From assembly GCA_002683355.1 (NCBI GenBank), contig NYTF01000092.1:1-12064 (forward strand): a stretch of 12,064 nucleotides of DNA, given 5' to 3'. Positions 1 through 12,064 of the stretch are shown in pieces. The number at the start of each line of letters is the position of its first letter. The stretch's first letter is position 1. The translations under genes and the position numbers were made by a program. Below the pieces are notes generated by a model. That model searched no databases. It was not told the DNA's origin and was given only the letters and a program-made list of their open reading frames with translations. The stretch comes from Paracoccaceae bacterium (GTDB lineage Bacteria > Pseudomonadota > Alphaproteobacteria > Rhodobacterales > Rhodobacteraceae).

Positions 1-1
1 A

Positions 2-1000
2 TGGGAACCCCAAGAAGCAATATGGATGCAATGGCCAGGCTATTGGGAAAAAGACTATGAAATAACATTTGCAAAAATGGCTGATATTATTTCTCGTTAC
101 GAAAAACTTCATATTCTATATAAGACAGATAAAATTTACGCTAATGCACAAAAAGCCATAAGCGACATCGGGGGAAATCCAAAAAATACAAATATTTTCT
201 GGCATAAAGTGCCTTATAATAATGCCTGGATGAGAGATAATGGCCCTGTTTATGTGTTAAATTATAATGAACTAAGGATCCAAAATTGGGATTTTAATGC
301 TTGGGGCGGTGCATTTGGTTCAGATATTCCTTTTACTTTAGACAATAAAATTCCAGACAAAGTTGGCACGATACTTAATTTGCCTGTCGATTATGTGAAT
401 ATAGTACATGAACGAGGAAACCTAGAGTTCAATGGGTTAGACACTGTAATACTAAATTGGAGTACCATTGGTGATCCAAGTAGAAATTTGCATTATAATA
501 AACAGAGGGCAGAACATGATCTAAAAACGCTATTTGGTGTAACAAATGTTATTTTTATTGAAGGCATTCCAAGTGGAGATCGTACAAAAGGGCACGTAGA
601 TGGTATCGCCCGGTTTATTGGAACAAGCACCGTAGTTGTCGTTCAATGCACATCTAGGTCATTATGTCAGACCGATAGTAAAGATGCTGACATCTATGAC
701 AAAGCTGCAAAGATAATACAGGAGGCAGGACTAAATGTGATCAGGGAGCCTATTGAAGGTTTTGTTAAATATAATAATCAAATGTTTGATACTAATTACA
801 TGAACTGGTTAGTTGGAAACGGATTTGTAATAGCTCCAGGTTTTGGAAAATTAGAAACAGATTTAGCAGCAAAATCTCGCATAGAGAGCTATTTTCCAAA
901 TCGTGAAGTACATATAATCGAAATGTTAAGTTCTTGGGCAGCCGGTGGTGGGGTACACTGTCATACGAATGACCAACCCGCCTTCTCATTGTCCAAATAA
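2..1000 (+). CDS. Agmatine deiminase family protein (5' end cut by window)
   Basis: Family role: agmatine deiminases hydrolyse agmatine to N-carbamoylputrescine and ammonia in the cytoplasm, on the route from arginine to putrescine. The reading frame is open from base 2 and begins WEPQEAIW, the usual N-terminal family motif, so the ATG at base 26 is internal and the true start lies outside the window; 332 residues are visible. Counting from the internal Met, the core motifs are AWMRDNGP (67-74), NAWGGAFG (91-98), GHVDGIARF (189-197) and GGGVHCHT (307-314), with Cys312 the presumed thiol nucleophile and His190/Asp192 its partners. Odd points: the usual EGG(S/N) motif reads ERGN (129-132), and the region normally containing NRNP is diverged (DPSRN). 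The fold and chemistry are well supported. Agmatine as substrate is only likely; another guanidino compound is possible. It is followed by a 116-base gap before the next gene. Confidence 0.85.
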   Translation, partial: WEPQEAIWMQWPGYWEKDYEITFAKMADIISRYEKLHILYKTDKIYANAQKAISDIGGNPKNTNIFWHKVPYNNAWMRDNGPVYVLNYNELRIQNWDFNAWGGAFGSDIPFTLDNKIPDKVGTILNLPVDYVNIVHERGNLEFNGLDTVILNWSTIGDPSRNLHYNKQRAEHDLKTLFGVTNVIFIEGIPSGDRTKGHVDGIARFIGTSTVVVVQCTSRSLCQTDSKDADIYDKAAKIIQEAGLNVIREPIEGFVKYNNQMFDTNYMNWLVGNGFVIAPGFGKLETDLAAKSRIESYFPNREVHIIEMLSSWAAGGGVHCHTNDQPAFSLSK

Positions 1001-1030
1001 ACCTTTATAATGAAATTTAGTTAGTCGAGC

Positions 1031-1069
1031 TCTCAAACGAACAAATTTGAGAACTTTGCAAAAGTTTTT
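1031..1069 (+). terminator. Possible weak terminator hairpins after the deiminase gene
   Basis: Two AT-rich hairpins lie in tandem in the gap after the deiminase stop. The first pairs TCTCAAA (1031-1037) with TTTGAGA (1046-1052) around an 8-base loop. The second pairs AACTTT (1052-1057) with AAAGTT (1061-1066) around a 3-base loop and runs into a short T tract (1065-1069). The G+C content of the stems is low, so intrinsic termination would be weak. The pairing is seen directly; the function is inferred. The two stems share base 1052, so they could be alternatives. Confidence 0.25.
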
Positions 1070-1084
1070 AATAGTAAATATGGT
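1056..1084 (+). promoter_or_regulatory. Candidate sigma-70-like promoter for the DUF1330 gene
   Basis: TTGCAA (1056-1061) and TATGGT (1079-1084) are separated by 17 bases, each matching four of six consensus positions. A transcript would start near 1091 and give a leader of about 25 bases before the ATG at 1117. Such matches are common in AT-rich DNA, and this one overlaps the second hairpin, so it is only a candidate. Confidence 0.25.
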
Positions 1085-1116
1085 CGTGCTTAAATTAAAT
1101 ATTTGAAAGGGTCAAA

Positions 1117-1434
1117 ATGTCAAAAGGAATAATAATTGGGTTAATCAAATTCACTGATAGAGCAGCCTTCATAAAAGATTTTGCATCAAAAGTTCCAGAA
1201 GTAATTACTAAGTATGGCGGTAAATTTATCCTAAGACAGCCTGAAACTCATTATTCTGAAGGCCAAACATTTGATTTACATGTTGTATCAGAATTTGAAG
1301 ATATAGAAGATGCAAAAGCAATGCTAAATAGTGTGGAATGGAAAAATTTAAACGAACATCGTTATAAGAATTCTGATATCAAAACCGGCAGTTTTATGCT
1401 GTTGGAAGGTGGAGATGCACTGATTAAAAATTAA
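1117..1434 (+). CDS. DUF1330-type small dimeric alpha-beta barrel protein
   Basis: A 105-residue cytoplasmic protein of the DUF1330 type, a ferredoxin-like alpha-beta barrel family whose members usually dimerise and whose biochemical role is generally unknown. The pattern is typical: an N-terminal strand (KGIIIGLIKFTD), a helix ending in KYGGKFILR (about residues 33-41), a central strand LHVVSEFEDIEDAKAM (54-69), a helix starting SVEWKNL, and a C-terminal strand SFMLLEGG (92-99). No catalytic residue can be named. AAAGGG (1106-1111), five bases before the ATG, is a good ribosome binding site and fixes the start. The PhzF-family gene follows after 35 bases, so the two are probably co-transcribed. 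Family assignment is by recognition of the fold pattern; no substrate is proposed. Confidence 0.75.
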   Translation: MSKGIIIGLIKFTDRAAFIKDFASKVPEVITKYGGKFILRQPETHYSEGQTFDLHVVSEFEDIEDAKAMLNSVEWKNLNEHRYKNSDIKTGSFMLLEGGDALIKN

Positions 1435-1469
1435 TAGTAATATCGGATATACCAAATAAAAAGTGATTA

Positions 1470-2261
1470 ATGATGAAAGAAATAAGAATTTATCAAATTG
1501 ATGCCTTTGCGGAAAAAATATTCTCTGGAAATCCCGCCGCTGTTTGCCCGTTAGAAAACTGGTTGCCAGATGAACAAATGCAATTGATTGCAATGGAGAA
1601 TAATCTTGCTGAAACAGCATTCATAAATCTCAACAGTGATCCTTACGAGTTGAGGTGGTTTACTCCTAAAACTGAAGTAGATCTATGTGGGCATGCAACC
1701 CTCGCAACATCAAGAGTTCTTTTTGATGAATATTTAAAAAAGGATGTCAATGAAATTGTATTCAGTACAAAAAGTGGAATTCTAAAAACATTTAAACAAA
1801 AGGATAAGATATTTCTTGATTTTCCACGAGATTTTCCAAATCCAGTCAAAGTGTCCACATTTATTAATGAAGCATTATCAAAAAAACCCAAATATCTTTT
1901 TAGAGGGAAAGATGATTATCTCGCCATCTTTGAAAATGAAGCCGTTGTCAAATCTATCACACCTGATTTTATAAAGCTCGCAAGCTTAAACTGTAGAGGA
2001 GTAATAATAAGTGCAATTGGAGACAAATTTGACTTTGTTTCTCGTTTTTTTGCTCCACAAACGGGTATAAATGAAGATCCAGTAACTGGATCAGCTCACA
2101 CATTACTAACACCCTACTGGGCTAAGATTTTAAATAAAAATATTTTAACAGCATTTCAGTGCTCAGAACGTGGTGGAGCACTTTCGTGTGAGCTACTACC
2201 TAAAAGAGTACTTATCGGCGGAAAATCAAAATTTTATCTGAAAGGGACAATTTCGTTGTGA
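1470..2261 (+). CDS. PhzF family isomerase/epimerase-like protein
   Basis: A 263-residue member of the PhzF (phenazine biosynthesis-like) family. Characterised members share a diaminopimelate-epimerase-like two-domain fold and act as isomerases, but most homologues, this one included, have no known substrate. Visible signatures: YQIDAFAEKIFSGNPAAV (8-25), NLAETAFI with the conserved acidic Glu48 (45-52), the DLCGHATLA loop (71-79), and in the second half EDPVTGSAH (202-210), which mirrors the first-domain loop. Length is close to the family's usual 260-300. Two ATG codons in a row (1470 and 1473) can start it and there is no strong ribosome binding site; the difference is one residue. No phenazine genes are nearby, so phenazine synthesis is not implied. 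The stop codon overlaps the next gene's GTG start. Confidence 0.9.
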   Translation: MMKEIRIYQIDAFAEKIFSGNPAAVCPLENWLPDEQMQLIAMENNLAETAFINLNSDPYELRWFTPKTEVDLCGHATLATSRVLFDEYLKKDVNEIVFSTKSGILKTFKQKDKIFLDFPRDFPNPVKVSTFINEALSKKPKYLFRGKDDYLAIFENEAVVKSITPDFIKLASLNCRGVIISAIGDKFDFVSRFFAPQTGINEDPVTGSAHTLLTPYWAKILNKNILTAFQCSERGGALSCELLPKRVLIGGKSKFYLKGTISL

Positions 2262-2755
2262 ATATTGAAAAAAAGACTGAGCAAAAAACAATATCAATCT
2301 TTGTAGATGTTCAGAACGTTTACTATACGTCTAGACAAGCTTTTAAAAGAAACTTCAACTATAATAAGTTTTGGTCAATGGTTACCAAGGATAGAAAAAT
2401 TCTCAATGCAATTGCTTACGCCACTCATCGCAATGACAAAAAACAAATAGAGTTTCAAAATATTTTAAGAGCTATCGGATTCAAAGTTAAATTAAAACCA
2501 TACATTACCAGAGCAGATGGAACGGCCAAAGCCGACTGGGATGTTGGAATTGCAATAGATGTCATGGAACTGGCTGAAACCTCTGATATTATTATCTTGG
2601 TTTCAGGAGACGGCGACTTTGACCAATTATTAAACAGAATTAAAGATAAGTATAATGTCGAATGCGAAGTTTATAGCGTGAAATCCCTCACATCAAAGTC
2701 CTTAATAGATGAAGCCACGAGATATTATCCTATTGAAGATCCTTTGTTATTATAA
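2258..2755 (+). CDS. NYN domain (LabA-like) putative ribonuclease
   Basis: A 165-residue protein consisting almost entirely of a NYN/LabA (DUF88) domain, a PIN-like fold found in RNases. The acidic metal-binding set is present: Asp17 in IFVDVQN (14-20), Asp93 and Asp95 in KADWDVGIAIDVM (91-103), Asp101, and SGDGDF (116-121) with Asp118 and Asp120. Metal-dependent RNA cleavage is therefore plausible, but target and role are unknown. The start is GTG at 2258, which shares GTGA with the TGA of the PhzF gene (four-base overlap), with AAAGGGA about ten bases upstream (2241-2247), so translational coupling is likely. No extra RNA-binding domain (OST-HTH/LOTUS) follows; the protein ends about 45 residues after the last acidic motif. 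The next gene runs toward it on the other strand, 43 bases away, without a clear terminator between. Confidence 0.85.
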   Translation: MNIEKKTEQKTISIFVDVQNVYYTSRQAFKRNFNYNKFWSMVTKDRKILNAIAYATHRNDKKQIEFQNILRAIGFKVKLKPYITRADGTAKADWDVGIAIDVMELAETSDIIILVSGDGDFDQLLNRIKDKYNVECEVYSVKSLTSKSLIDEATRYYPIEDPLLL

Positions 2756-2798
2756 CTAACAAAAATGATAATTAATCCTGAATAATTTTCCAACTACA

Positions 2799-3956
2799 TT
2801 ACTTGGAAGCCTCAAGAATTGAGCAGTAATTAGCTACCCCAGATCCACCCATGTTAAAAATACATCCAATATTTGCATTCTTTTTCTGCATCGCTCCAGC
2901 CTGACCAGTGAGTTGAGCTGAAGTTAGCGCATGCATAGAAACACCAGTAGCTCCTACTGGATGCCCCTTGGCTTTTAATCCTCCAGACAAATTTACAGGC
3001 AAAATTCCATCTGAGTAAACAGTTCCATCCAATATGGCTCGATCTCCCTGCCCTAGTTTAGTTAAACCCATCGCCTCGTAAACCAAGAGTTCAGCGATTG
3101 TAAAACAATCATGAACTTCGGCAAAATCAACATCATCAAGAGTGATACCAGCTTCTTTATATGCATCAGAAAATGCCTTAGCCGGCCCTTCGAATTTTAA
3201 AATGTCCCTGCTCGACATGGGTAAAAAATCATTAACTTGCACAGCTGAGCGAAATTTTACACTATTTCCAAAGTTTTCCTCTAATTCATCAGATACCATT
3301 ACTAGTGCCGCTGCCCCGTCAGAAACTAAAGAACAGTCTGTAAGTCTTAAGGGCGAAGCCACTAATGGATTTTTATCACTAATTGTATTGCAAAACTCAA
3401 ACCCAACATCTTTTTGCATTTGTGCTAAAGGATTATGAACTGAATTTTTATGATTTTTTGCTGCAATTCTTGCCAAAATTTCAGATTTATTACCATATTT
3501 TTGGAAATATGTGTGAGCAAACCGACTAAAAACCTGAGGGAAGGAAACTTCGCTTTCTTCTGCTTGATAAGAAGCAGTCATCAAAGATTCAGTAACCCCT
3601 TTTGTATCTTTGCCTGTCATTTTTTCTACGCCAATAACGAGAGCAATTTTTGTATTTCCAGAATTTATAGCATTACGAGCGCCATGAATAGCTGCCGATC
3701 CTGATGCACAAGCATTCTCAAGCCGAGTAGAGGGTGTAAAGCGTAACTTGGGATCAATTTGTAAAGCTAGAGAAGAAGGAAAACCATCATTAACTAAACC
3801 ACCGTTATAATGGCCCATCCAAATTCCATCAATCTCTGTGGGATCTACTCCTGCATGCTCAATTGCTTCTCTCGCTGATCTTACTATTAACTGTTCAAGA
3901 TCATCTTTTAAGCGGCCAAATTCAGTATGACCCCAACCTACAATCCGTGCCCCCAT
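2799..3956 (-). CDS. SCP2-type thiolase (acetyl-CoA acetyltransferase family)
   Basis: A 385-residue thiolase of the SCP2/SCP-x type. Thiolases cleave 3-ketoacyl-CoA with CoA, or condense acyl-CoAs in reverse. Motifs in order: ENACASGSAA with nucleophile Cys83 (80-89); HDCF (282-285), the SCP2-type motif whose Cys284 is the likely second catalytic cysteine; GLKAKGHPVGATG (327-338) with His332; and GGSG (370-373) in place of the CxG motif of degradative thiolases. All expected catalytic residues are there. GAGGAG (3963-3968 on the top strand, complementary), six bases before the ATG, fixes the start. It is the last gene of a three-gene minus-strand block, 44 bases after the small membrane protein. 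No DUF35 zinc-ribbon/OB partner, often seen beside related thiolase-like proteins, is in the window. Direction and substrate are unknown; a catabolic role is inferred from the aldehyde dehydrogenase upstream. Confidence 0.9.
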   Translation of the reverse strand: MGARIVGWGHTEFGRLKDDLEQLIVRSAREAIEHAGVDPTEIDGIWMGHYNGGLVNDGFPSSLALQIDPKLRFTPSTRLENACASGSAAIHGARNAINSGNTKIALVIGVEKMTGKDTKGVTESLMTASYQAEESEVSFPQVFSRFAHTYFQKYGNKSEILARIAAKNHKNSVHNPLAQMQKDVGFEFCNTISDKNPLVASPLRLTDCSLVSDGAAALVMVSDELEENFGNSVKFRSAVQVNDFLPMSSRDILKFEGPAKAFSDAYKEAGITLDDVDFAEVHDCFTIAELLVYEAMGLTKLGQGDRAILDGTVYSDGILPVNLSGGLKAKGHPVGATGVSMHALTSAQLTGQAGAMQKKNANIGCIFNMGGSGVANYCSILEASK

Positions 3957-4000
3957 AATTAGCTCCTCACTTTAGTTAATTATAATTTAAACTTTGGAAA

Positions 4001-4165
4001 TTATTCATTTTTTTTAAAGAATGGTATTAAAAATATTATACATGCTAATAGAAAGAAAATGCTCCCAAACATGCTCCAAAAACTACCTATACTTGCAATA
4101 CAAAATCCCAATGCAGATACAACAAAGAGTAACCAACCAATCAACTCTATTCTTCTATTTTTCAT
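4001..4165 (-). CDS. Small two-helix membrane protein (54 aa)
   Basis: A 54-residue hydrophobic protein with two predicted membrane segments: about residues 7-27 (from IELIGWLLFVVSALGF) and about 30-51 (from FWSMFGSIFFLLACII), with a basic start MKNRR and end KK, consistent with a helical hairpin in the inner membrane. The ATG at 4165 is chosen because GAGGAG lies ten bases upstream (4176-4181, complementary); an in-frame ATG as far back as 4231 is possible but has no such support and would bury the gene deep inside the dehydrogenase. The start overlaps the end of the aldehyde dehydrogenase gene by 11 bases, and the thiolase starts 44 bases after its stop. I recognise no functional domain. 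The setting between two soluble enzymes suggests a conserved operon member, perhaps helping membrane association, but that is a guess. Confidence 0.7.
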   Translation of the reverse strand: MKNRRIELIGWLLFVVSALGFCIASIGSFWSMFGSIFFLLACIIFLIPFFKKNE

Positions 4166-5669
4166 TACTATACATCTCCTCATCGGCATACGGAAACCAC
4201 CAAAAATCCTGTGAGCTACTTTCAGGATCAATCATTATCATTTTAGTTTCTCTAAAAGTATCAATGCCCTCTGGCCCCAATTGCCGACCAATTCCACTCA
4301 TTTTTGATCCTCCAAAAGGACCAGCGTCATTATCAAGCAAAGGTGCATTTACCCAAACCATTCCACCATCTAATTCCTCTGTTGCTCGAATACTTTCTTT
4401 TAAATCTCTTGTGTAAATATTTGCTCCCAAAGCATACTTAGAATTATTTGCTAATGTTAATGCTTCATCAAAATCTGAAACCTTACATATTGGTGCAACT
4501 GGGCCGAAACTTTCATTATTAAAGATATCCATTTCTGAATTACAATCAATCAAGACAGTAGCTTCAACAAACCAACCTTGATTAAATTCAGCCGGCCTTC
4601 CACCTCCAACTATAGCATTAGCTCCCTGGTTTGATGCGTTTGACAATAGGCTTTCATAACGGTCTCGCTCCTTTGACGAAACGAGAGGGCCCATATCTAC
4701 CTTATCTAAGCCATTACCAATTCTAATTTTTTTTGTTTCTTCAACCAGAAGTTCAACAAATTGATCATGAATTTTTTCATGCACAAAAAATCTCTCAGCA
4801 GAAACACAAATTTGCCCACAATTCATGTAAGCAGAAAATGCTGCTGCCCTAGCCGCAATATCTAATGTAGCAGATGGCATAATGAGAAATGGATCATTGC
4901 CTGATGTTTCGATCAATGCTGGCTTCATTAAATCCCCACAAGAACGCGACACGGCACGACCAACTGGAATTGATCCTGTAAAAGCAACTCCATGTGTATC
5001 TGTGTGCTTCACCAAATAGTCTCCAACCGAGCCACTACCAGGCGCAACTTGAAACAATCCTTTTGGTAGATGATCAAAGGCTTGCGCAAATAACAAAGTT
5101 GTTAAGGTTGTGTATTCTGACGGCTTAACAATGCAAGCGTTACCACCTGCTAAAGCAGCTCCAGCTTCCCAGGCAAGTAATACTAAAGGAAAATTAAAGG
5201 GCATTATAAATGCAACTGTCCCAACGGGTTGCTTTATTGTGTAATGAAATTGTCCTGAAACAGCAGGGCCCATAACACGACCCATATCAGAACGACCAAT
5301 CTCAGCTGAATATCTCAAAGAATGCACACACCAATCAACCTCATCTAGAGATTCTTTATAAGGTTTACCCATTTCGCGCGTGAGAGACTCCGCCAGTAAA
5401 TGCTTCATAGTTTCAATTTTTGACGCAACTTCATGCATTTTGTGTGCACGATCTACTGCAGAATGGTCTTTCCACCAAATTTTTTGAACGGTATTACTGC
5501 GATCAATCATCATATCTATTTCAGAATTAGTAGTCTCTAAAACGCTTCCTAAGACAACTTCAGTAGCTGGATCGATTACCTTAAAACCTTCAATACTTTC
5601 ACTTTTATGAAAATCACCATCAAAATAAAATCGATCACTCATATTTTTAAACTCTTTTAAAGTCTGCAT
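4155..5669 (-). CDS. NAD(P)-dependent aldehyde dehydrogenase
   Basis: A 504-residue member of the aldehyde dehydrogenase superfamily, oxidising an aldehyde to the acid in the cytoplasm. Visible landmarks: PFNFP (157-161) with the oxyanion-hole Asn159; VKPSE (181-185) with cofactor-binding Lys182; TGSIPVGR (231-238) in the Rossmann region; general base Glu254 in ETSGNDP (254-260); nucleophile Cys288 in NCGQICVS (283-290); ESFGP (386-390); and GPFGGSKMSGIGRQLG near the C-terminus. The second half of the base motif is unusual, since most relatives have ELGGKxP. The protein ends with an aromatic tail containing FWWFPY (489-494). Start choice is uncertain: the ATG at 5669 has GAGGA 13 bases upstream, while Met10 (ATG at 5642) has only a weak AGAG site. 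It is the first gene of a block with a small membrane protein (11-base overlap) and a thiolase. The substrate cannot be told from the sequence. Confidence 0.93.
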   Translation of the reverse strand: MQTLKEFKNMSDRFYFDGDFHKSESIEGFKVIDPATEVVLGSVLETTNSEIDMMIDRSNTVQKIWWKDHSAVDRAHKMHEVASKIETMKHLLAESLTREMGKPYKESLDEVDWCVHSLRYSAEIGRSDMGRVMGPAVSGQFHYTIKQPVGTVAFIMPFNFPLVLLAWEAGAALAGGNACIVKPSEYTTLTTLLFAQAFDHLPKGLFQVAPGSGSVGDYLVKHTDTHGVAFTGSIPVGRAVSRSCGDLMKPALIETSGNDPFLIMPSATLDIAARAAAFSAYMNCGQICVSAERFFVHEKIHDQFVELLVEETKKIRIGNGLDKVDMGPLVSSKERDRYESLLSNASNQGANAIVGGGRPAEFNQGWFVEATVLIDCNSEMDIFNNESFGPVAPICKVSDFDEALTLANNSKYALGANIYTRDLKESIRATEELDGGMVWVNAPLLDNDAGPFGGSKMSGIGRQLGPEGIDTFRETKMIMIDPESSSQDFWWFPYADEEMYSNEK

Positions 5670-5696
5670 TATCCTACCACTATCCTCTACAATATC

Positions 5697-5744
5697 TTTT
5701 GAAATTATTTAAATCTTTCAAAATACATAATGTTCAAATACATA
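5697..5744. promoter_or_regulatory. Dyad plus near-direct repeat in a divergent promoter region
   Basis: The 130 bases between the divergently transcribed aldehyde dehydrogenase and methyltransferase genes contain a perfect 8-base inverted repeat, TTTTGAAA (5697-5704) and TTTCAAAA (5716-5723), separated by 11 bases. Overlapping its right arm is a near-direct repeat, TTCAAAATACATA (5717-5729) and TTCAAATACATA (5733-5744), about one and a half helical turns apart. The size and position suit a binding site for a dimeric repressor, but no regulator gene is in the window and AT-rich DNA yields such patterns by chance. I could not place a convincing -35/-10 pair in either direction. Confidence 0.25.
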
Positions 5745-5799
5745 TCGTTTGCAATACAGGTTTTGTATTATTTGTTATAAATTATGAGAAGCAGTTAAC

Positions 5800-6255
5800 A
5801 TGAGTAAATTTGAAACAAAAATTCCACCCCCAATAGTCGCTTTAATAAGTGGATTAGTAATAAGCTCATCTTCGGCGTTCATAACACCTTTTGGTTTTTT
5901 TGGTCATAAATTCTTTGCGCTGATATTTTTAATTCTGTGCTTTACCCTACTAATTATGTCTATTAAAAAATTTCACCGCGAAGAAACTACTATTAATCCC
6001 TTGAAGCCAGAACAAGCGAGCAAACTACTTACCACTGGCACTTATGCATTTTCCCGAAATCCGATGTACCTAGGATTAACTGGTATATTAATTGGAATAT
6101 TTTTGTTTTTAGGTTCCTGGTTTGGAATTGTAATAATACCAATCTTTGTCATTTACATAACCAAGTATCAAATAAAACCAGAAGAATACGCAATGAATAA
6201 AAAATTTGGTGGCCAATATCAATCTTATTGCAACAAAGTAAGAAGATGGATTTAA
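5800..6255 (+). CDS. Isoprenylcysteine carboxyl methyltransferase-like membrane protein
   Basis: A 151-residue integral membrane protein of the ICMT/PEMT-like methyltransferase superfamily. Four hydrophobic segments are visible (about 9-26, 36-54, 90-106 and 107-122). The signature follows: a basic loop with INPLKPEQASKLLTTGTYAF (65-84), then SRNPMYLG (85-92), then PEEYAMNKKFG..Y..Y (127-143) and the terminal VRRW. In the family this C-terminal part binds S-adenosylmethionine and the acceptor. Bacteria lack prenylated CaaX proteins, so the real acceptor is probably a lipid or small hydrophobic molecule; it is unknown here. GAGAAG (5786-5791), eight bases before the ATG, supports the start. 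Length matches the many 145-200-residue bacterial homologues. The DMT exporter follows after 38 bases on the same strand. Confidence 0.85.
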   Translation: MSKFETKIPPPIVALISGLVISSSSAFITPFGFFGHKFFALIFLILCFTLLIMSIKKFHREETTINPLKPEQASKLLTTGTYAFSRNPMYLGLTGILIGIFLFLGSWFGIVIIPIFVIYITKYQIKPEEYAMNKKFGGQYQSYCNKVRRWI

Positions 6256-6293
6256 TTTAAATATGTAAAGTACTTTTAGCCGAAAGAATTCAC

Positions 6294-7178
6294 TTGGAAC
6301 AATCTCGCCCTATAATTGCTGCGCTATACATGTGTGGCGTAATTTTTGCTTTCACAATTATGGCAATTTCTGGTCGCGCTATCAGCTTCCAATTGGATAC
6401 TTTTGAAATAATGGCATATCGATCTCTTGTTGGCGTGCTTATCGTAGTAATAATTGGCTCAATTACTGGGCAAATGAAAAAACTTCGTTTTAAAAAAATG
6501 AAACTACATTTTTTTCGAAATTTAGGACACTTTATAGGCCAAAATTTATGGTTTTTTGCCTTAAGCTTAATACCTTTTGCTCAATTATTTGCATTTGAAT
6601 TCTCTGTTCCAATCTGGGTTGCAATTTGTGCACCATTTTTTCTTTCTGAAAAACTAACCCCAGTAAGAATTGGGTCTGCTTTAGTTGGCTTTTGTGGTAT
6701 CTTATTAGTAGCCAGGCCAGGAATGGAACCAATCTCTATTGGAATATTAGCTGCTGCCGGATGTTCAATAATGTTTGCATTCACGTCAATAACAACTAAA
6801 TTATTAACTCGGACAGAAGGTATAATAGATATTTTGTTTTGGTTAACATTGATGCAACTAGTTTTTGGAATAATTTGTGCCGGATATGACAATAACTTTA
6901 AACTTCCAAACAGCTCAACTTTGCCATGGCTTGTTATCATCGGATGCTGTGGATTATTAGCGCATTACTGCTTAACAAAAGCGTTAACTTATGCACCAGC
7001 CACTATTGTAACACCAATGGATTTTGCTCGATTACCAATAATAGCTACCATAGGTATGCTCTTTTATAATGAACCCTTAAGTTTTCTTATAATTTTGGGA
7101 GCAATAATAATATTTCTAGCGAACTACATAAATATTAGAGCAGAAGCAAAACGAAAAACTAACGCCACCACTCACTAG
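6294..7178 (+). CDS. EamA-type DMT superfamily transporter
   Basis: A 294-residue drug/metabolite transporter with two EamA repeats (about 9-139 and 147-279) and roughly ten membrane helices. Family members mostly export amino acids, metabolites or drugs across the inner membrane; the substrate here cannot be inferred. Repeat hallmarks include AYRSLVGVLIV (41-51), the FEFSVPIWVAICAPFFLSEK helix pair ending in an acidic residue (101-120), GILLVARPG (135-143), and in the second half ALTYAPATIVTPMDFARLPI (230-249) with FYNEPLS (257-263). The start is TTG at 6294: no ATG or GTG lies between it and the in-frame stop at 6258, GAAAG (6282-6286) precedes it by seven bases, and the first Met downstream (residue 13) would cut into helix one. 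The final 20 bases overlap the end of the opposing reductive dehalogenase homologue. Confidence 0.88.
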   Translation: MEQSRPIIAALYMCGVIFAFTIMAISGRAISFQLDTFEIMAYRSLVGVLIVVIIGSITGQMKKLRFKKMKLHFFRNLGHFIGQNLWFFALSLIPFAQLFAFEFSVPIWVAICAPFFLSEKLTPVRIGSALVGFCGILLVARPGMEPISIGILAAAGCSIMFAFTSITTKLLTRTEGIIDILFWLTLMQLVFGIICAGYDNNFKLPNSSTLPWLVIIGCCGLLAHYCLTKALTYAPATIVTPMDFARLPIIATIGMLFYNEPLSFLIILGAIIIFLANYINIRAEAKRKTNATTH

Positions 7179-8304
7179 GCTTAAGTCTTTTTCTTGGCTT
7201 ATAAAAGTCTTCCCATAGGATGGCCAACTTTCGAAAGGATGAGGTTGCTAACCTCCTCCATAATTTATCAGTAAAAGTTAAGTATTCACGGTTAAAAGGA
7301 CAAACCCTCATGCAAATTGCACAATCTGTTCTAATCTTTGCCCAGTAGCCAAAACACTTCTCACAATTAGCTGACCACTTTTTTACGCCCTTTATTGTGG
7401 AACTACTATCTTTTTTTAAATCAGGCTCCCCAAAAGGAAGAGCTTTTGGAGGGCAAGCAGATGCACACTTAGTGCAACTGTGGCAATATTCCTTGATGCC
7501 TAAGGCTTTTGGAATATCAATTTCCATTGGCAAAGAGGTGAAAATTTTGGAAAATCGTACTCTGGGACCAAATTCTGGTGTAATTACCATCTGATTTCGT
7601 CCGTACTCTCCTAATCCTGCCTTTATGGCATAGGGGATTACTAACGCTGTATCATTCATTGAAGCAATTGCTTCGTATCCAAGCCCCCTAATGTAAGCTG
7701 CCAATTGCATGCAGATTGCAGCTTCATGACTATATTCTCTACCTGAAGAGGCTCCTGCTAGGGCAGAAGGATATGTTTCCACTAAATCATAATCCATCGA
7801 ATGAGCCATGACTATTACTTTATCACAACTCTTTGGCAAACTATTTTCGACAGCCTCAAATCTATTTGTATCAACCCGATGACTGTAGTGCCACCGAACA
7901 TCAGTAGAAGTGATACCAACTAAATCAGCACCAAATAGCTTAGCAACATGTTTTATTTCTTTGGACTGCTCATTCAAATCTTCCACAATGATTTTATTTT
8001 TTGAAATTTCTGTATCGTTTTTTATATAAGACTGAAATCCTTCCCGAAGCCCTGACTTGGCACCTCTATTGGAAATTAAGTCAGACACCAACCAAGATGC
8101 ATTTCGAAGCGCAAAATCTTTTTGGGTAAAACCATCAGCCCGTTTTGCAACAAAATCTGAACGATAACTGTTAAAAAATGCTTCTGTATCTTTTGACATA
8201 ATACTTTCATCCCAAAAAGCACGGGTAAATATATCATTCATTTGATTAAACTGCTCAAATTCTTTTGTAATTTCAAAGCCTACAAGTTTGTCAGTTTCTG
8301 TCAA
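7159..8304 (-). CDS. Reductive dehalogenase homologue (corrinoid/iron-sulfur protein)
   Basis: A 381-residue protein with the reductive dehalogenase (RdhA) layout; the family removes halogen from organohalides using a cobamide and two [4Fe-4S] clusters. The N-terminus FEITKEFEQF..F.RAFWDE (10-33) matches the start of mature RdhA proteins. Next come KLFGADLVGI (122-131), PSALAGASSGREYSHEA (179-195), NDTALVIPYAIKAGLGEYGR (217-236) and FGPRVRFSKIFTSLP (245-259). Cluster motifs are C274-x2-C277-x2-C280-x3-C284-P and C317-x10-C328-x2-C331-x3-C335-P. Tyr191, Asn217 and Arg250 are spaced as I recall for PceA Tyr246, Asn272 and Arg305. There is no Tat signal, no RdhB-like anchor gene and no fused reductase domain, so it should be cytosolic with an unknown electron donor. 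The start is TTG at 8304 with AAAAGG eight bases upstream; the next Met (22) would remove conserved sequence. It is 35 bases after the HNH gene. Dehalogenation itself is inferred. Confidence 0.85.
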   Translation of the reverse strand: MTETDKLVGFEITKEFEQFNQMNDIFTRAFWDESIMSKDTEAFFNSYRSDFVAKRADGFTQKDFALRNASWLVSDLISNRGAKSGLREGFQSYIKNDTEISKNKIIVEDLNEQSKEIKHVAKLFGADLVGITSTDVRWHYSHRVDTNRFEAVENSLPKSCDKVIVMAHSMDYDLVETYPSALAGASSGREYSHEAAICMQLAAYIRGLGYEAIASMNDTALVIPYAIKAGLGEYGRNQMVITPEFGPRVRFSKIFTSLPMEIDIPKALGIKEYCHSCTKCASACPPKALPFGEPDLKKDSSSTIKGVKKWSANCEKCFGYWAKIRTDCAICMRVCPFNREYLTFTDKLWRRLATSSFRKLAILWEDFYKPRKRLKPSEWWR

Positions 8305-8339
8305 AATTAATACCTTTTAAATCTTTTTATTAATGTTCT

Positions 8340-8924
8340 TTATGCCTTAAGTTCTGCATCCCAATAAAGATAATCCATCCAACTATCGTGAAGATAATTA
8401 GGTGGAAACTTTCGACCTTGATTTCTTAAATATTCTGGATCAGGCTTTTTGGGTTGCTGTTTTAGGTTTAAACCAGCTTTTTTAAGACTTCTTGATCCTT
8501 TTTTCAGATTACATTTCTGGCATGATGCAACAACATTTTCCCAAGTGGTTTTTCCACCTTTAGATCTTGGAATTATATGATCGAAAGTCATTTCACCTTT
8601 CAAACCACAATATTGACATTTAAATTCGTCCCTCAAAAACAAATTAAATCTTGTGAATGCACTAGCACTATTTGGTTTGATATAATCCTTTAGCACTACT
8701 ACTGAAGGTATTTTAATTTCGACAGACGGTGACCTCACAACATCTTCATATTCTGCTAAAATGGTCACACGGTTCGAAATACTGGCTTTTATCGAATCTT
8801 GCCAAGTCCAAAGTGATAGAGGGAAGTATGACAACGGCCTATAATCTGCATTTAAAACTAAAGCTGAATTTTTTACGATTGATCCATGAGCATTCGAAAG
8901 TATTTCGACATATCGTTCTGTCAT
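8340..8924 (-). CDS. HNH endonuclease family protein
   Basis: A 194-residue protein with an HNH nuclease domain at about residues 98-146. Two zinc-binding pairs, C103QYC106 and C135QKC138, bracket the core: DHIIPRSKGG (115-124, with Asp115-His116 as the first metal/catalytic pair) and TWENVVASCQKCN (127-139, with Asn130). The conserved N-terminal part (ALVLNADYRPLSYFPLSLW, 21-39) is shared with a chromosomal HNH family that I know mainly from alphaproteobacteria and cyanobacteria, which argues against a homing or phage enzyme. Its cellular job is not established. AAGGAG (8930-8935, complementary), five bases before the ATG, fixes the start, and a promoter candidate lies upstream. The dehalogenase homologue follows 35 bases after the stop, so they are probably co-transcribed, although no functional link is evident. 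Confidence 0.9.
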   Translation of the reverse strand: MTERYVEILSNAHGSIVKNSALVLNADYRPLSYFPLSLWTWQDSIKASISNRVTILAEYEDVVRSPSVEIKIPSVVVLKDYIKPNSASAFTRFNLFLRDEFKCQYCGLKGEMTFDHIIPRSKGGKTTWENVVASCQKCNLKKGSRSLKKAGLNLKQQPKKPDPEYLRNQGRKFPPNYLHDSWMDYLYWDAELKA

Positions 8925-8985
8925 GGAAACTCCTTAACCCCTGTCACATACAATCTATAAAAGCTCATAAAAAGATTTAACCCAT

Positions 8986-9013
8986 ATTATATATCGAAGA
9001 AAAGATGCATCAA
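8986..9013 (-). promoter_or_regulatory. Sigma-70-like promoter for the HNH/dehalogenase-homologue pair
   Basis: On the minus strand TTGATG (complement of 9008-9013) and a perfect TATAAT (complement of 8986-8991) are 16 bases apart, in the 109-base gap between the hydrolase and HNH genes. Transcription would begin near 8979, leaving a leader of about 55 bases. This is the best promoter match I found in the window and suggests that HNH and the dehalogenase homologue can be expressed independently of the upstream cobalamin genes. No operator or riboswitch structure is evident in the leader. Confidence 0.45.
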
Positions 9014-9033
9014 GCGTAATATATATGATTGAA

Positions 9034-9705
9034 TTATTCACTTGTTGAAATTCCCAACATATTATTCATAAATTGCAAAGCTGTACCTAGACCATCGGGT
9101 GAAATACCGTGCCCAACTCCCTTGGCAATATGTGTGTAAACAGTAAAACCATTCATGGTTAAATTATTAGCAGCATCAGCCATAGATTCAAATGGTACAA
9201 CATCATCACCATCACCATGTGCAAGCAAAATTGGCATCTTTACTTTTAACTCATCCTCCAAGCTTTCAGGTTCTAACAATCGACCAGAAAAGCCAACAAC
9301 ACCTGCAAAAGGAAGTGCTCTTCTTGGAGCTAAGTGCAAACTCAACATCGTACCCTGGCTAAATCCTAGCAAAATTGTGTTTTGCTCATTGATACCTTCA
9401 ATTTTCATAATTTCATCAATAAAAATATTCACAGTATCAATTGACTGTTCCATGATTAAACGAGAATCCACTTCACTAGAACCGTCAATCCAAGGGATAG
9501 GGAACCACTCAAAGCCTGAAGGATTCATTTGACACCTATGAGGAGCATCTGGGGCAACAAACATTGTGCTAGGCATATGTGGACCTAACGAGTCAGCAAG
9601 ACCCAACAAATCCCCCCCATCGGCTCCATATCCATGAATTAAAATAACCAAAGAGTCACATTTTCCCGAAATTGGCATTTTCTTTCCATATTTTAAAACA
9701 GTCAT
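9034..9705 (-). CDS. Carboxylesterase/phospholipase-type alpha/beta hydrolase
   Basis: A 223-residue alpha/beta hydrolase of the carboxylesterase/lysophospholipase (Abhydrolase_2) type, about the family's normal length. The catalytic triad is clear: Ser116 in the elbow GFSQG (114-118), Asp167 in HGDGDDVVP (163-171) and His199 in GVGHG (196-200). The oxyanion region HGYGADGGDLLGL (24-36) and APDAP (51-55) are also typical. No signal peptide is seen, so it should hydrolyse short acyl esters in the cytoplasm; the natural substrate is unknown. Its ATG overlaps the TGA of the glycosylase gene by four bases (ATGA), and AAGGA (9711-9715, complementary) precedes it by five bases. Translational coupling to the glycosylase is likely. 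It ends the four-gene overlapping run that begins with cbiD. Confidence 0.9.
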   Translation of the reverse strand: MTVLKYGKKMPISGKCDSLVILIHGYGADGGDLLGLADSLGPHMPSTMFVAPDAPHRCQMNPSGFEWFPIPWIDGSSEVDSRLIMEQSIDTVNIFIDEIMKIEGINEQNTILLGFSQGTMLSLHLAPRRALPFAGVVGFSGRLLEPESLEDELKVKMPILLAHGDGDDVVPFESMADAANNLTMNGFTVYTHIAKGVGHGISPDGLGTALQFMNNMLGISTSE

Positions 9706-10331
9706 CTTATTCCTTCACGCTCTTTAATGTAGCTATAATAAGACCATAGACCCCTTGCGGCGACCGACTTCCAAGGTGACCACTTAATAGCTATTTCTCT
9801 CATTTGTTTTTCGTTTGGTCGCTCTGGTAGATCATATAAGATTTTACAAGCTTCCTGAAGAGCCAAATCACCTGCTGGAAAGATATCCGCTCTCCCTAAA
9901 GAAAACATAAGATAAATCTCTGCAGTCCATCTTCCAATCCCCAGAACACAAGTTAATTTCTTTATTACCGTCTCAGAATCTACCTTTTCCAACCCTTTAT
10001 AATCAATCTTGGCAGTAGCTAGAGCTTTTACATATTTAATCTTTTGCCTAGACAAGCCCATTTTTTTAAGATCTTCATCAGAACTTTCCATAATTAATTC
10101 TTCAGAACTAATCATTTTTTGCCCCATTCTTTTCAGTATCGCTTCTGCTGCTGCAACCGAGATTTGTTGGGACACTATAACCGAAACAAGATTCGAAAAC
10201 CCAGGTTCGCGCAATCGCAATTTTAGAGGTCCTAAAGTCTTAAGTGCTTTCTTAAAAATCATATCATTTTGTGATATAGCTTCAACACCTTCTTCCAGAC
10301 ATAAATTAGATGAAATTATTCGTTCATGCAT
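9702..10331 (-). CDS. DNA-3-methyladenine glycosylase II-like protein (short AlkA type)
   Basis: A 209-residue HhH-GPD base-excision glycosylase of the AlkA/Mag type, which removes alkylated purines from DNA. Visible elements: SVIVSQQISVAAAEAI (50-65), the helix-hairpin-helix at LTCVLGIGRWTAEIYLMFSLGR (126-147), and the catalytic Asp155 in FPAGDLALQ (151-159). No cysteine cluster follows, unlike MutY/Nth relatives, and the protein lacks the roughly 70-residue N-terminal domain of E. coli AlkA, as many short bacterial forms do. The ATG at 10331 has GAGGA eight bases upstream (10340-10344, complementary) and overlaps the cobK stop by eight bases. Its stop overlaps the hydrolase start. A repair enzyme placed between cobalamin and esterase genes looks like a packing arrangement; no shared pathway is apparent. 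Confidence 0.9.
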   Translation of the reverse strand: MHERIISSNLCLEEGVEAISQNDMIFKKALKTLGPLKLRLREPGFSNLVSVIVSQQISVAAAEAILKRMGQKMISSEELIMESSDEDLKKMGLSRQKIKYVKALATAKIDYKGLEKVDSETVIKKLTCVLGIGRWTAEIYLMFSLGRADIFPAGDLALQEACKILYDLPERPNEKQMREIAIKWSPWKSVAARGLWSYYSYIKEREGIR

Positions 10332-11064
10332 TCAGCAATTCCTCTAAACAATTTATGACTTCTTTTGTATTAGTATAAATTTGTCTTTCCATTCTATATG
10401 GCCTTTTTATCATAGCGACTTTAATACCAAGTGCTCGTGCAGCAATTAACTTTGCTTCACTTTGACTGCCACCTGAGTTCTTTACCAGCAACCAATCAAC
10501 ACCCAATTGCTTAAATAATTTTATCTCACTCTCTACTGAAAAAGGTGGGCGGCCAATGAGGTAGGTACCATTAGCAAAAGGAAATGCATGCCCTGGATCA
10601 TCAATTTGCCTACATATTAATTTAATATTTTGACACGCTTTGAAATGCTTGGCACTTTCACGACCCGAAGCAACAAAAATAGTATCACCATCAGATAAAT
10701 GTGATTTCAATTCATTTTCATCATTAATTTCAATCCAATTATCTGAAGCTAATTTTACCCATTCCGGTCTTTCAAATAAAAAGTATGGAATATTAAGTTT
10801 GCTACAAGCATTTTTAGCATTTTTACTAATAATTCTTGCAAATGGATGAGTAACATCGATAACGACTTCAATATTACTTTCACGAATAAACTTTTTTAAT
10901 CCTTCGACTCCACCAAAACCACCAAATCGCATATTCCTAGATATCTTAACTGGTTCTTTAGTAACACCCGCTAGAGAAGAAATTAGAAAATATTCAGGGA
11001 TATTATCAATAATCTGAGCTAATACTCTTGCTTCATGCGTTCCTGCTAACAACAAAATATTCAA
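10324..11064 (-). CDS. cobK: Precorrin-6A reductase
   Basis: A 246-residue CobK/CbiJ protein, which reduces precorrin-6A to precorrin-6B with NADPH during corrin-ring synthesis in the cytoplasm. Family motifs occur in order: ILLLAGTHEA (3-12), SSLAGVT (29-35), RFGGFGGVEGL (46-56), the strongly conserved DVTHPFARIISKNA (70-83), FERPEW (97-102), FVASGRES (129-136) and KNSGGSQSEAKLIAARALGI (195-214). The start is TTG at 11064, sharing TTGA with the cbiD stop (four-base overlap), with AGGTAGGG just upstream; the motif ILLLAG begins immediately after, so no later start is possible. Length matches the family. It follows CbiD both in the gene order and in the pathway. Whether the metal-free or cobalt-bound intermediate is used cannot be told from this gene. 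Confidence 0.93.
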   Translation of the reverse strand: MNILLLAGTHEARVLAQIIDNIPEYFLISSLAGVTKEPVKISRNMRFGGFGGVEGLKKFIRESNIEVVIDVTHPFARIISKNAKNACSKLNIPYFLFERPEWVKLASDNWIEINDENELKSHLSDGDTIFVASGRESAKHFKACQNIKLICRQIDDPGHAFPFANGTYLIGRPPFSVESEIKLFKQLGVDWLLVKNSGGSQSEAKLIAARALGIKVAMIKRPYRMERQIYTNTKEVINCLEELLNA

Positions 11065-12064
11065 AATGCCCTACCTACTATCTTACCTGCCCTGTCAATT
11101 ATAACAACATCACAGATGATATTAGAATTCAAAAGTTGCTCATTAATTCTCGCTAAAGCTTTTTTGGCCACAATTTCAGCTAACTTTGGTCCACAAATCT
11201 CTAGCGCTTCTAGAGCAGTATTAACATTTTCAATCTCACCTAAGTTAAATTTTGCAGACCATTTATGTAAAATTTTGAAATCAACTTGAGACCTTTTTGA
11301 ATGCAGATCTTTTGCTCCCTGAGCAAGCTTGGTAATCTTACCAATGCCGCCGCCTATGGTCAGCTTTTGAATGGGATGACGCCGCAAATATTTTAAAAGG
11401 CCACCTGAAAAATCACCCATATCTAACATAGCGTGATCAGGCAGTTTATATAATGACTGGACAACAGACTCAGATGTAGATCCCGTACATCCGGCAACAT
11501 GAGAGGTTTTTGTTGCAACCGCCACGTCGATGCCTCGATGTATTGAAGCAATCCAAGCTGCACAACTAAATGGACGAACAATGCCTGTTGTCCCTAAAAT
11601 TGATAGGCCATTCTCTATACCAAGCCTTGGATTCCAAGTTTTTTTCGCAATATTCTCTCCATCAGGAATTGATATAGTTACTTTTATATTTGGTAATTTA
11701 TTAAAAAATTTTGCAGTCTCATTAATAATTTCGCTAATAAACTTTCTTGGCATCGGGTTGATCGCTGGATCACCAACAGGAATTGGTAATCCTGGCTTAG
11801 TAACAATTCCAACCCCGGGACCAGCACAAAACTTAATACCATTATCAGTTTCCTGAACTTTAACTTTTATCATTGATCCATGCGTTACATCAGGATCATC
11901 TCCAGCGTCTTTTATAATACCCACCTCAACACTATCTATTTTTTGCTCAAAAAAAGAGATACGAAACAATGGTTGTTCACCCTTTGGAAGAGTTATTGAT
12001 ACCACGTCAAGCTTTTCGCCTGACCATAGTGCATAAAGGCCTGCTTTTGTAGCAGCGGTAGCAC
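11061..12064 (-). CDS. cbiD: Precorrin-5B/cobalt-precorrin-5B C1-methyltransferase (5' end cut)
   Basis: CbiD methylates C1 of the precorrin-5 macrocycle with S-adenosylmethionine and is associated with loss of the C20 fragment, giving (cobalt-)precorrin-6A, the substrate of the next gene's product. The frame stays open to the window edge and reads ATAATKAGLYALWSG..LD before the GTG at 12005, the normal CbiD N-terminus, so that GTG is internal and the gene begins outside; 333 residues are visible and only about 10-15 are missing. Motifs (numbered from the internal GTG): GPGVGIVTKPGLPIPVGDPAINP (62-84), NPRLGIENGLSILGTTGIVRPFS (124-146), AGCTGSTSE (171-179), and MGDFSGGLLKYLRRH followed by GIGKITKLAQG and a HSKRSQVDF segment. 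CbiD and CobK as neighbours suggest that this organism uses CbiD where the classical aerobic pathway uses CobF. Upstream cobalamin genes probably continue beyond the window. Confidence 0.93.
   Translation of the reverse strand, partial: ATAATKAGLYALWSGEKLDVVSITLPKGEQPLFRISFFEQKIDSVEVGIIKDAGDDPDVTHGSMIKVKVQETDNGIKFCAGPGVGIVTKPGLPIPVGDPAINPMPRKFISEIINETAKFFNKLPNIKVTISIPDGENIAKKTWNPRLGIENGLSILGTTGIVRPFSCAAWIASIHRGIDVAVATKTSHVAGCTGSTSESVVQSLYKLPDHAMLDMGDFSGGLLKYLRRHPIQKLTIGGGIGKITKLAQGAKDLHSKRSQVDFKILHKWSAKFNLGEIENVNTALEALEICGPKLAEIVAKKALARINEQLLNSNIICDVVIIDRAGKIVGRAF

Follow-up and report, generated by a model that had tools for sequence, protein, structure and literature searches.

Several described enzymes frame the gene reported here. 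Ros_A3X954 of Roseobacter sp. MED193 was reported in April 2026 to convert 2,6-dibromophenol to 2-bromophenol, and its kcat/KM for the former was given as 1.5e4 per M per s; it has no twin-arginine translocation (TAT) signal and carries PF13486 at residues 174-269, the motif CDICTKCADACP at 283-294 and CAICMRVCP at 337-345, with two clusters and cobalt at 0.11 per protein (PMC13101508). According to the same paper, A0A2T7UTL8 of Pararhodobacter aggregans is 72.2% identical to Ros_A3X954 and is reported to deiodinate triiodophenol (PMC13101508). Catabolic RdhAs are described as having a vestigial duplicated domain, often a reductase, and the residue set Y426/K488/R552 (PMC10463259). For the respiratory enzyme PceA of Sulfurospirillum multivorans, Tyr246 is placed near the phenol hydroxyl and could protonate ortho carbons, and Arg305, Trp376, Asn272, Phe38 and cofactor side chains are described as a ring limiting access to cobalt (PMC5500849). 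Here, we analysed a compact rdhA gene in a 12,064-nucleotide stretch of a Paracoccaceae bacterium (GCA_002683355.1, contig NYTF01000092.1, positions 1 to 12,064; hereafter the window). The comparisons indicate that it is real and probably encodes a functional compact reductive dehalogenase.

Protein family and predicted fold

The gene and its family features are located as follows:
7159..8304, minus strand: compact RdhA-family reductive dehalogenase gene (381 amino acids, TTG start, no TAT signal)
8313..8318, minus strand: Shine-Dalgarno-like AAAAGG, 8 bases ahead of the TTG (read from the sequence)
7981..8304, minus strand: the first 108 residues, which align with RdhA structures but lie outside the QueG alignments, these beginning at residue 109 (fold comparison)
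7450..7485, minus strand: first [4Fe-4S] motif, CHSCTKCASACP, residues 274-285 (motif and alignment)
7354..7356, minus strand: Cys317, an additional conserved cluster cysteine (alignment)
7297..7323, minus strand: second [4Fe-4S] motif, CAICMRVCP, residues 328-336 (motif and alignment)

The window protein scored 164.5 bits against the reductive dehalogenase profile TIGR02486 (cut-off 160.35, E 5.3e-48; NCBIfam profile search), a profile that exceeded its cut-off in none of 14 control genomes and gave sub-cut-off matches in 11 of them. Pfam additionally assigned PF13486 (30.1 bits, cut-off 24.3) and Fer4_16 (35.8 bits, cut-off 30). The solved-structure relatives were S. multivorans PceA (E 3.7e-45), the 8q4h PceA (5.8e-45), NpRdhA (1.9e-27) and QueG (8e-11). 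Chance similarity is ruled out because of the E-values obtained for PceA and TIGR02486. The predicted model matched the corrinoid-binding RdhA fold across its whole length, and the cluster cysteines 274, 277, 280, 284, 317, 328, 331 and 335 showed no variation across an alignment of 48 sequences (39 of 120 listed relatives, 8 loci and the window protein itself). Given this fold and these cysteines, one cobamide and two [4Fe-4S] clusters are implied.

The N-terminus, MTETDKLVGFEITKEF, contained no twin arginine, and the TAT signal that marks respiratory RdhAs is therefore absent. There was also no room for an adjacent RdhB at the locus, the only place where it was sought, as an HNH gene lies 35 bases upstream and a convergent EamA open reading frame (ORF) overlaps the 3' end.

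Active-site pocket

Residues 155-346 of the window protein aligned without gaps to PceA 210-401, and the numbering offset is therefore 55. The pocket positions are:
7732..7734, minus strand: Tyr191, equivalent to PceA Tyr246, the proposed proton donor (alignment; role from PMC5500849)
7654..7656, minus strand: Asn217, equivalent to PceA Asn272 (alignment)
7651..7653, minus strand: Asp218, present in every aligned compact sequence and sharing its column with the Asp of the QueG V-D-T (alignment)
7555..7557, minus strand: Arg250, equivalent to PceA Arg305 and NpRdhA Lys488 (alignment)
7342..7344, minus strand: Trp321, equivalent to PceA Trp376; Arg in NpRdhA, numbered 552 by count on the alignment (alignment)

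Tyr191, Asn217 and Arg250 were invariant in the 48-sequence alignment and in a second one of 80 sequences (79 of the same 120 plus the window protein), both drawn from the nearest relatives. Residue columns were then compared over 60 rows, comprising 26 compact, 4 respiratory, 12 fused (NpRdhA/BhbA-type), 12 short, 2 other and 4 QueG sequences. The Arg250 column held Arg in all compact (26/26), respiratory (4/4) and short (12/12) rows, Lys in all fused (12/12) and other (2/2) rows, and Tyr or Phe in the 4 QueG rows. Trp was found at position 321 in 26/26 compact and 4/4 respiratory rows, replaced by Arg in 12/12 fused and 2/2 other rows, by Phe or Ser in the 12 short rows and by Gln or Leu in the 4 QueG rows. 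Asn217 was kept in every compact row and in 3/4 respiratory rows; the column was mixed elsewhere, with Val in all 4 QueG rows. Asp at position 218 occurred in 26/26 compact, 4/4 QueG and 1/4 respiratory rows, and in none of the 12 fused, 2 other or 12 short rows.

As the Arg and Trp columns follow the respiratory and not the fused rows, the pocket of the compact clade is, on this alignment, PceA-like (Y/N/R/W) and not NpRdhA/BhbA-like (Y/K/R), which would predict simple rather than carboxylated halophenols as substrates. Given the gap-free alignment to the solved PceA, Tyr191, Asn217 and Arg250 would be unlikely to fail to meet at the cobalt. The initial annotation had recognised RdhA-type motifs in this ORF and had matched the spacing of its Tyr, Asn and Arg to that in PceA. 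The ORF, the cluster cysteines and the profile and PceA matches confirm that the motifs are real, and the spacing of 26 and 59 residues is exactly that of PceA 246/272/305. Profile, gap-free alignment, fold and conservation thus agree on an RdhA homologue whose set of PceA-type active-site residues is intact.

Phylogeny and distribution of the compact clade

The window protein belongs to a robust clade that comprises unfused proteins ~380-455 amino acids long and is common in marine Alphaproteobacteria. In the 60-row tree, the 26 compact rows, picked from 89 compact ORFs, formed one group (support 100/97) apart from the 4 QueG and 12 fused rows, and this group was kept after the removal of five long or doubtful rows (99/97). 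The QueG rows were one group in both trees. The deeper position of the clade among RdhAs is unsettled. The first tree joined it to the 4 respiratory rows (94/87, unstarred); in the second tree, with five rows fewer, the respiratory rows were not one group and no compact plus respiratory split was recovered. The approximately unbiased (AU) test did not reject compact and fused rows as one clade (p 0.297), nor a branch that has compact and QueG rows together on the same side (p 0.51); with QueG as outgroup, the latter therefore means only that the compact clade could branch first among RdhAs.

CAICMRVCP was present in 83 of the 89 compact ORFs and in 0/31 others. A genome scan returned 312 stretches with a relative, and the 80 of these that were listed came mostly from Alphaproteobacteria of the Rhodobacteraceae and Rhizobiaceae type; a small number were from gammaproteobacterial metagenome-assembled genomes (MAGs). 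Among genomes sampled from the family of the window, 35/248 matched at E <=1e-60, including the window's own (31/214 of good quality). A compact match above 300 bits was found in 11/61 genomes, again counting the window's own, any RdhA- or QueG-type match in 46/61, and both same-genus genomes drawn carry compact rdhA. Automatic ORF picking first missed the gene in 13/91 loci; it was later recovered in all 89 loci used. Of 72,556 plasmid records searched, 21 had a match, all below 60% identity, and no compact member was recognised among them, whereas the source name of one relative (P0166) includes 'plasmid'. Compact members were also observed under a delta- or gammaproteobacterial label, in MAGs or genomes (L095, from Deltaproteobacteria MAG CPC53, and L057, L072, L105 and L113), which reflects either transfer or mis-binning.

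Ros_A3X954 resembles this clade in having no TAT signal, PF13486, and CxxCTKCxxACP followed by CAICMRVCP 54 residues away. Two clade members, L102 and L118, carry its cluster strings at identical positions (283/337), and the window protein lies in the sister subclade to theirs in the 60-row tree. Judged by these strings, Ros_A3X954 probably belongs to the compact clade. It was not seen by name among the best 120 of 2376 and the best 120 of 2317 protein matches, few of which were named.

Proposed mechanism and alternative explanations

From the family, predicted fold, residue conservation and clade placement, we infer how the enzyme is loaded with cofactors, the route its electrons take, its substrate and its role. 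With a probability of roughly 0.85, we propose a soluble, cytosolic, TAT-less RdhA of the compact clade that would bind one cobamide and two [4Fe-4S] clusters and debrominate or deiodinate phenols via Tyr191, for detoxification or catabolism. A cytosolic donor, presumably ferredoxin or flavodoxin, would pass electrons via the clusters to yield Co(I). The halophenol would sit above the corrin, its hydroxyl close to Tyr191, within the Asn217/Arg250/Trp321 ring; bromide or iodide would then be lost, with Tyr191 as the putative proton donor for the ortho position. The cell could thereby detoxify natural bromophenols or feed phenol catabolism, and a bromophenol is a plausible substrate of the window protein.

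Several observations weigh against this proposal. The margin over the TIGR02486 cut-off is just 4 bits, PceA Tyr382 is not kept (Asp327 in the window protein), and model residues 181-186, directly N-terminal of Tyr191, have a predicted local distance difference test score below 50. The assignment of Ros_A3X954 to the clade was made from motif strings and positions, not from the full sequence, and its activity was lost on oxygen exposure (PMC13101508), which is awkward for an aerobe. The 45 neighbour clusters shared most often, judged by eye from their first residues only, included no recognised redox partner or aromatic-catabolism gene.

An RdhA-fold corrinoid iron-sulphur reductase that naturally acts on an epoxide or some other small molecule rather than on an organohalide, and for which dehalogenation is a side reaction, is an unlikely explanation. 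The distribution of Asp218, shared by all compact and QueG rows and nearly absent elsewhere, speaks for it, as do a PDB title that mentions the QueG 'Asp134 catalytic loop' and a neighbourhood in which nothing halogen-related was recognised. However, N-D-T also occurs in the 8q4h PceA, the PceA-type pocket residues are conserved, and Ros_A3X954, probably of the same clade, acts on 2,6-dibromophenol with the efficiency given above (PMC13101508). We regard as highly improbable a catabolic RdhA of the NpRdhA/BhbA kind, stripped of its duplicated and reductase domains and specific for carboxylated ortho-bromophenols: all 26 compact rows have Arg250 and Trp321 where the 12 fused rows have Lys and Arg, and sequence and fold are closer to PceA than to NpRdhA, although the protein lacks a TAT signal, comes from probably marine Rhodobacteraceae, and the AU test does not reject a compact plus fused clade.

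That the protein is a QueG (tRNA epoxyqueuosine reductase) wrongly labelled RdhA has a negligible probability. The two families have the fold core in common and the source names of some relatives read 'epoxyqueuosine reductase QueG', but the window protein reached 54.5 bits against the QueG profile TIGR00276 (NCBIfam), far below the cut-off of 200, and its genome encodes a separate QueG at 415.4 bits. Moreover, compact and QueG rows each formed one group in both trees, and the QueG rows have Val at the Asn position and Tyr or Phe at the Arg position. QueG identity was rejected on the profile score, the trees and the separate genomic QueG; a placement inside QueG, on which the initial annotation would have given up its reading, was thus not what the data gave.

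Returning to the proposed phenol dehalogenase, a wider and tentative idea, which we hold to be rather doubtful, is that the compact clade may constitute a third, free-standing dehalogenase lineage in aerobic marine bacteria, apart from respiratory and catabolic RdhAs. It would have a cytosolic PceA-type pocket for simple bromophenols, somehow protected from oxygen, and the clade-wide Asp beside Asn could be a second proton donor in the manner of QueG.

Genomic neighbourhood and host

One neighbour of rdhA recurs widely:
8340..8924, minus strand: HNH endonuclease-family gene, 35 bases upstream of rdhA on the same strand (Pfam; present in the majority of searched genomes, whether or not they carry rdhA)

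This gene occurred in 49/61 genomes. CbiJ/CobK- and CbiD-family genes were also found near the window rdhA (Pfam): the block HNH-esterase-HhH-cobK-cbiD spans window positions 8340-12005, and EamA stands in place of zwf. The CbiD ORF (11061-12005) lies near the contig end and its profile match starts at position 31, so that the ORF may be truncated or have its start more upstream. Gene order cobB/cbiA-sumt-cbiD-cobK-HhH-esterase-HNH-(rdhA)-zwf-pgl-pgi was seen with rdhA (e.g., L033, L065 and L069) and without it (L160). Among 89 rdhA stretches, HNH lay within 4 kilobases (kb) on the same strand in 30 and zwf in 22, and cbiD with cobK were present in 16, all of which were HNH-adjacent; rdhA stood between HNH and zwf (<=4 kb of both) in 22/89. 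The other 59/89 had no HNH within 4 kb, some of them ending too close to tell. Nine HNH stretches came from genomes without compact rdhA; HNH was followed by zwf in three (L157, L160 and L161), and cbiD and cobK were present in one (L160).

The presence of cobK and cbiD in 16/30 HNH-adjacent rdhA stretches versus 1/9 rdhA-less ones leans to an association, with kinship and stretch length uncontrolled. Since the block also exists without rdhA, we regard rdhA as a guest within a block of core genes close to cobalamin genes, and their adjacency as weak evidence of a functional link. Such a link was set aside, given the rdhA-free block and these uncontrolled factors.

The same genome carries a CobN/Mg-chelatase-family gene. 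It also encodes a second RdhA-like protein of ~320-331 amino acids (G000 contig C28:18007-18678; L040:8764-9726) in a separate short group, whose 12 rows keep Tyr and Arg and have Thr, Ala, Val or Asn at the Asn position; the ORF just downstream resembles, by eye, a MaoC/hydratase-type protein. At window positions 26-1000, an agmatine deiminase-like protein scored 138.3 bits against a cut-off of 381.8.

A seawater origin of the host is suggested by its named relatives. The initial annotation took the host to be probably aerobic, and the support is indirect: full COX1 was present in 2/2 same-genus genomes, while none was found in the window's own genome (0/1), which is 76.5% complete.

Comparison with known systems

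PceA of S. multivorans (4uqu) is exported and respiratory, whereas the window protein has no TAT signal. In this respect, and in the cobamide and two [4Fe-4S] clusters predicted for it and its probable setting, it resembles NpRdhA (4ras), BhbA and JtRdhA, which are described in PMC10463259 as TAT-less enzymes of aerobic or marine hosts. However, its Y191/R250/W321 differs from the catabolic Y426/K488/R552 set, and its 381 residues form one core with no duplicated domain, as the part of NpRdhA aligned with model residues 3-381 is limited to 268-615. NpRdhA (E 1.9e-27) and BhbA, named as relatives in the initial annotation, are not the closest match; both are larger and domain-duplicated, with Lys in place of Arg. 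QueG has nothing that matches the N-terminal 108 residues of the window protein and lacks the Asn and the Arg.

The compact form, in which the initial annotation had placed the novelty, appears not to be new, given a published debrominase with the clade signature (PMC13101508). Should the clade debrominate phenols intracellularly, natural organobromine turnover would be patchily distributed yet common among Alphaproteobacteria of oxic waters, and not a speciality of anoxic sediments. The clade also makes small, single-core enzymes available to study, in which the effect of Arg/Trp versus Lys/Arg on halophenol preference could be sharply tested. The window protein, with CHSCTKCASACP at 274 and CAICMRVCP at 328 (in Ros_A3X954, CDICTKCADACP at 283 and CAICMRVCP at 337), belongs to a widespread group that appears to include a laboratory-proven phenol debrominase.
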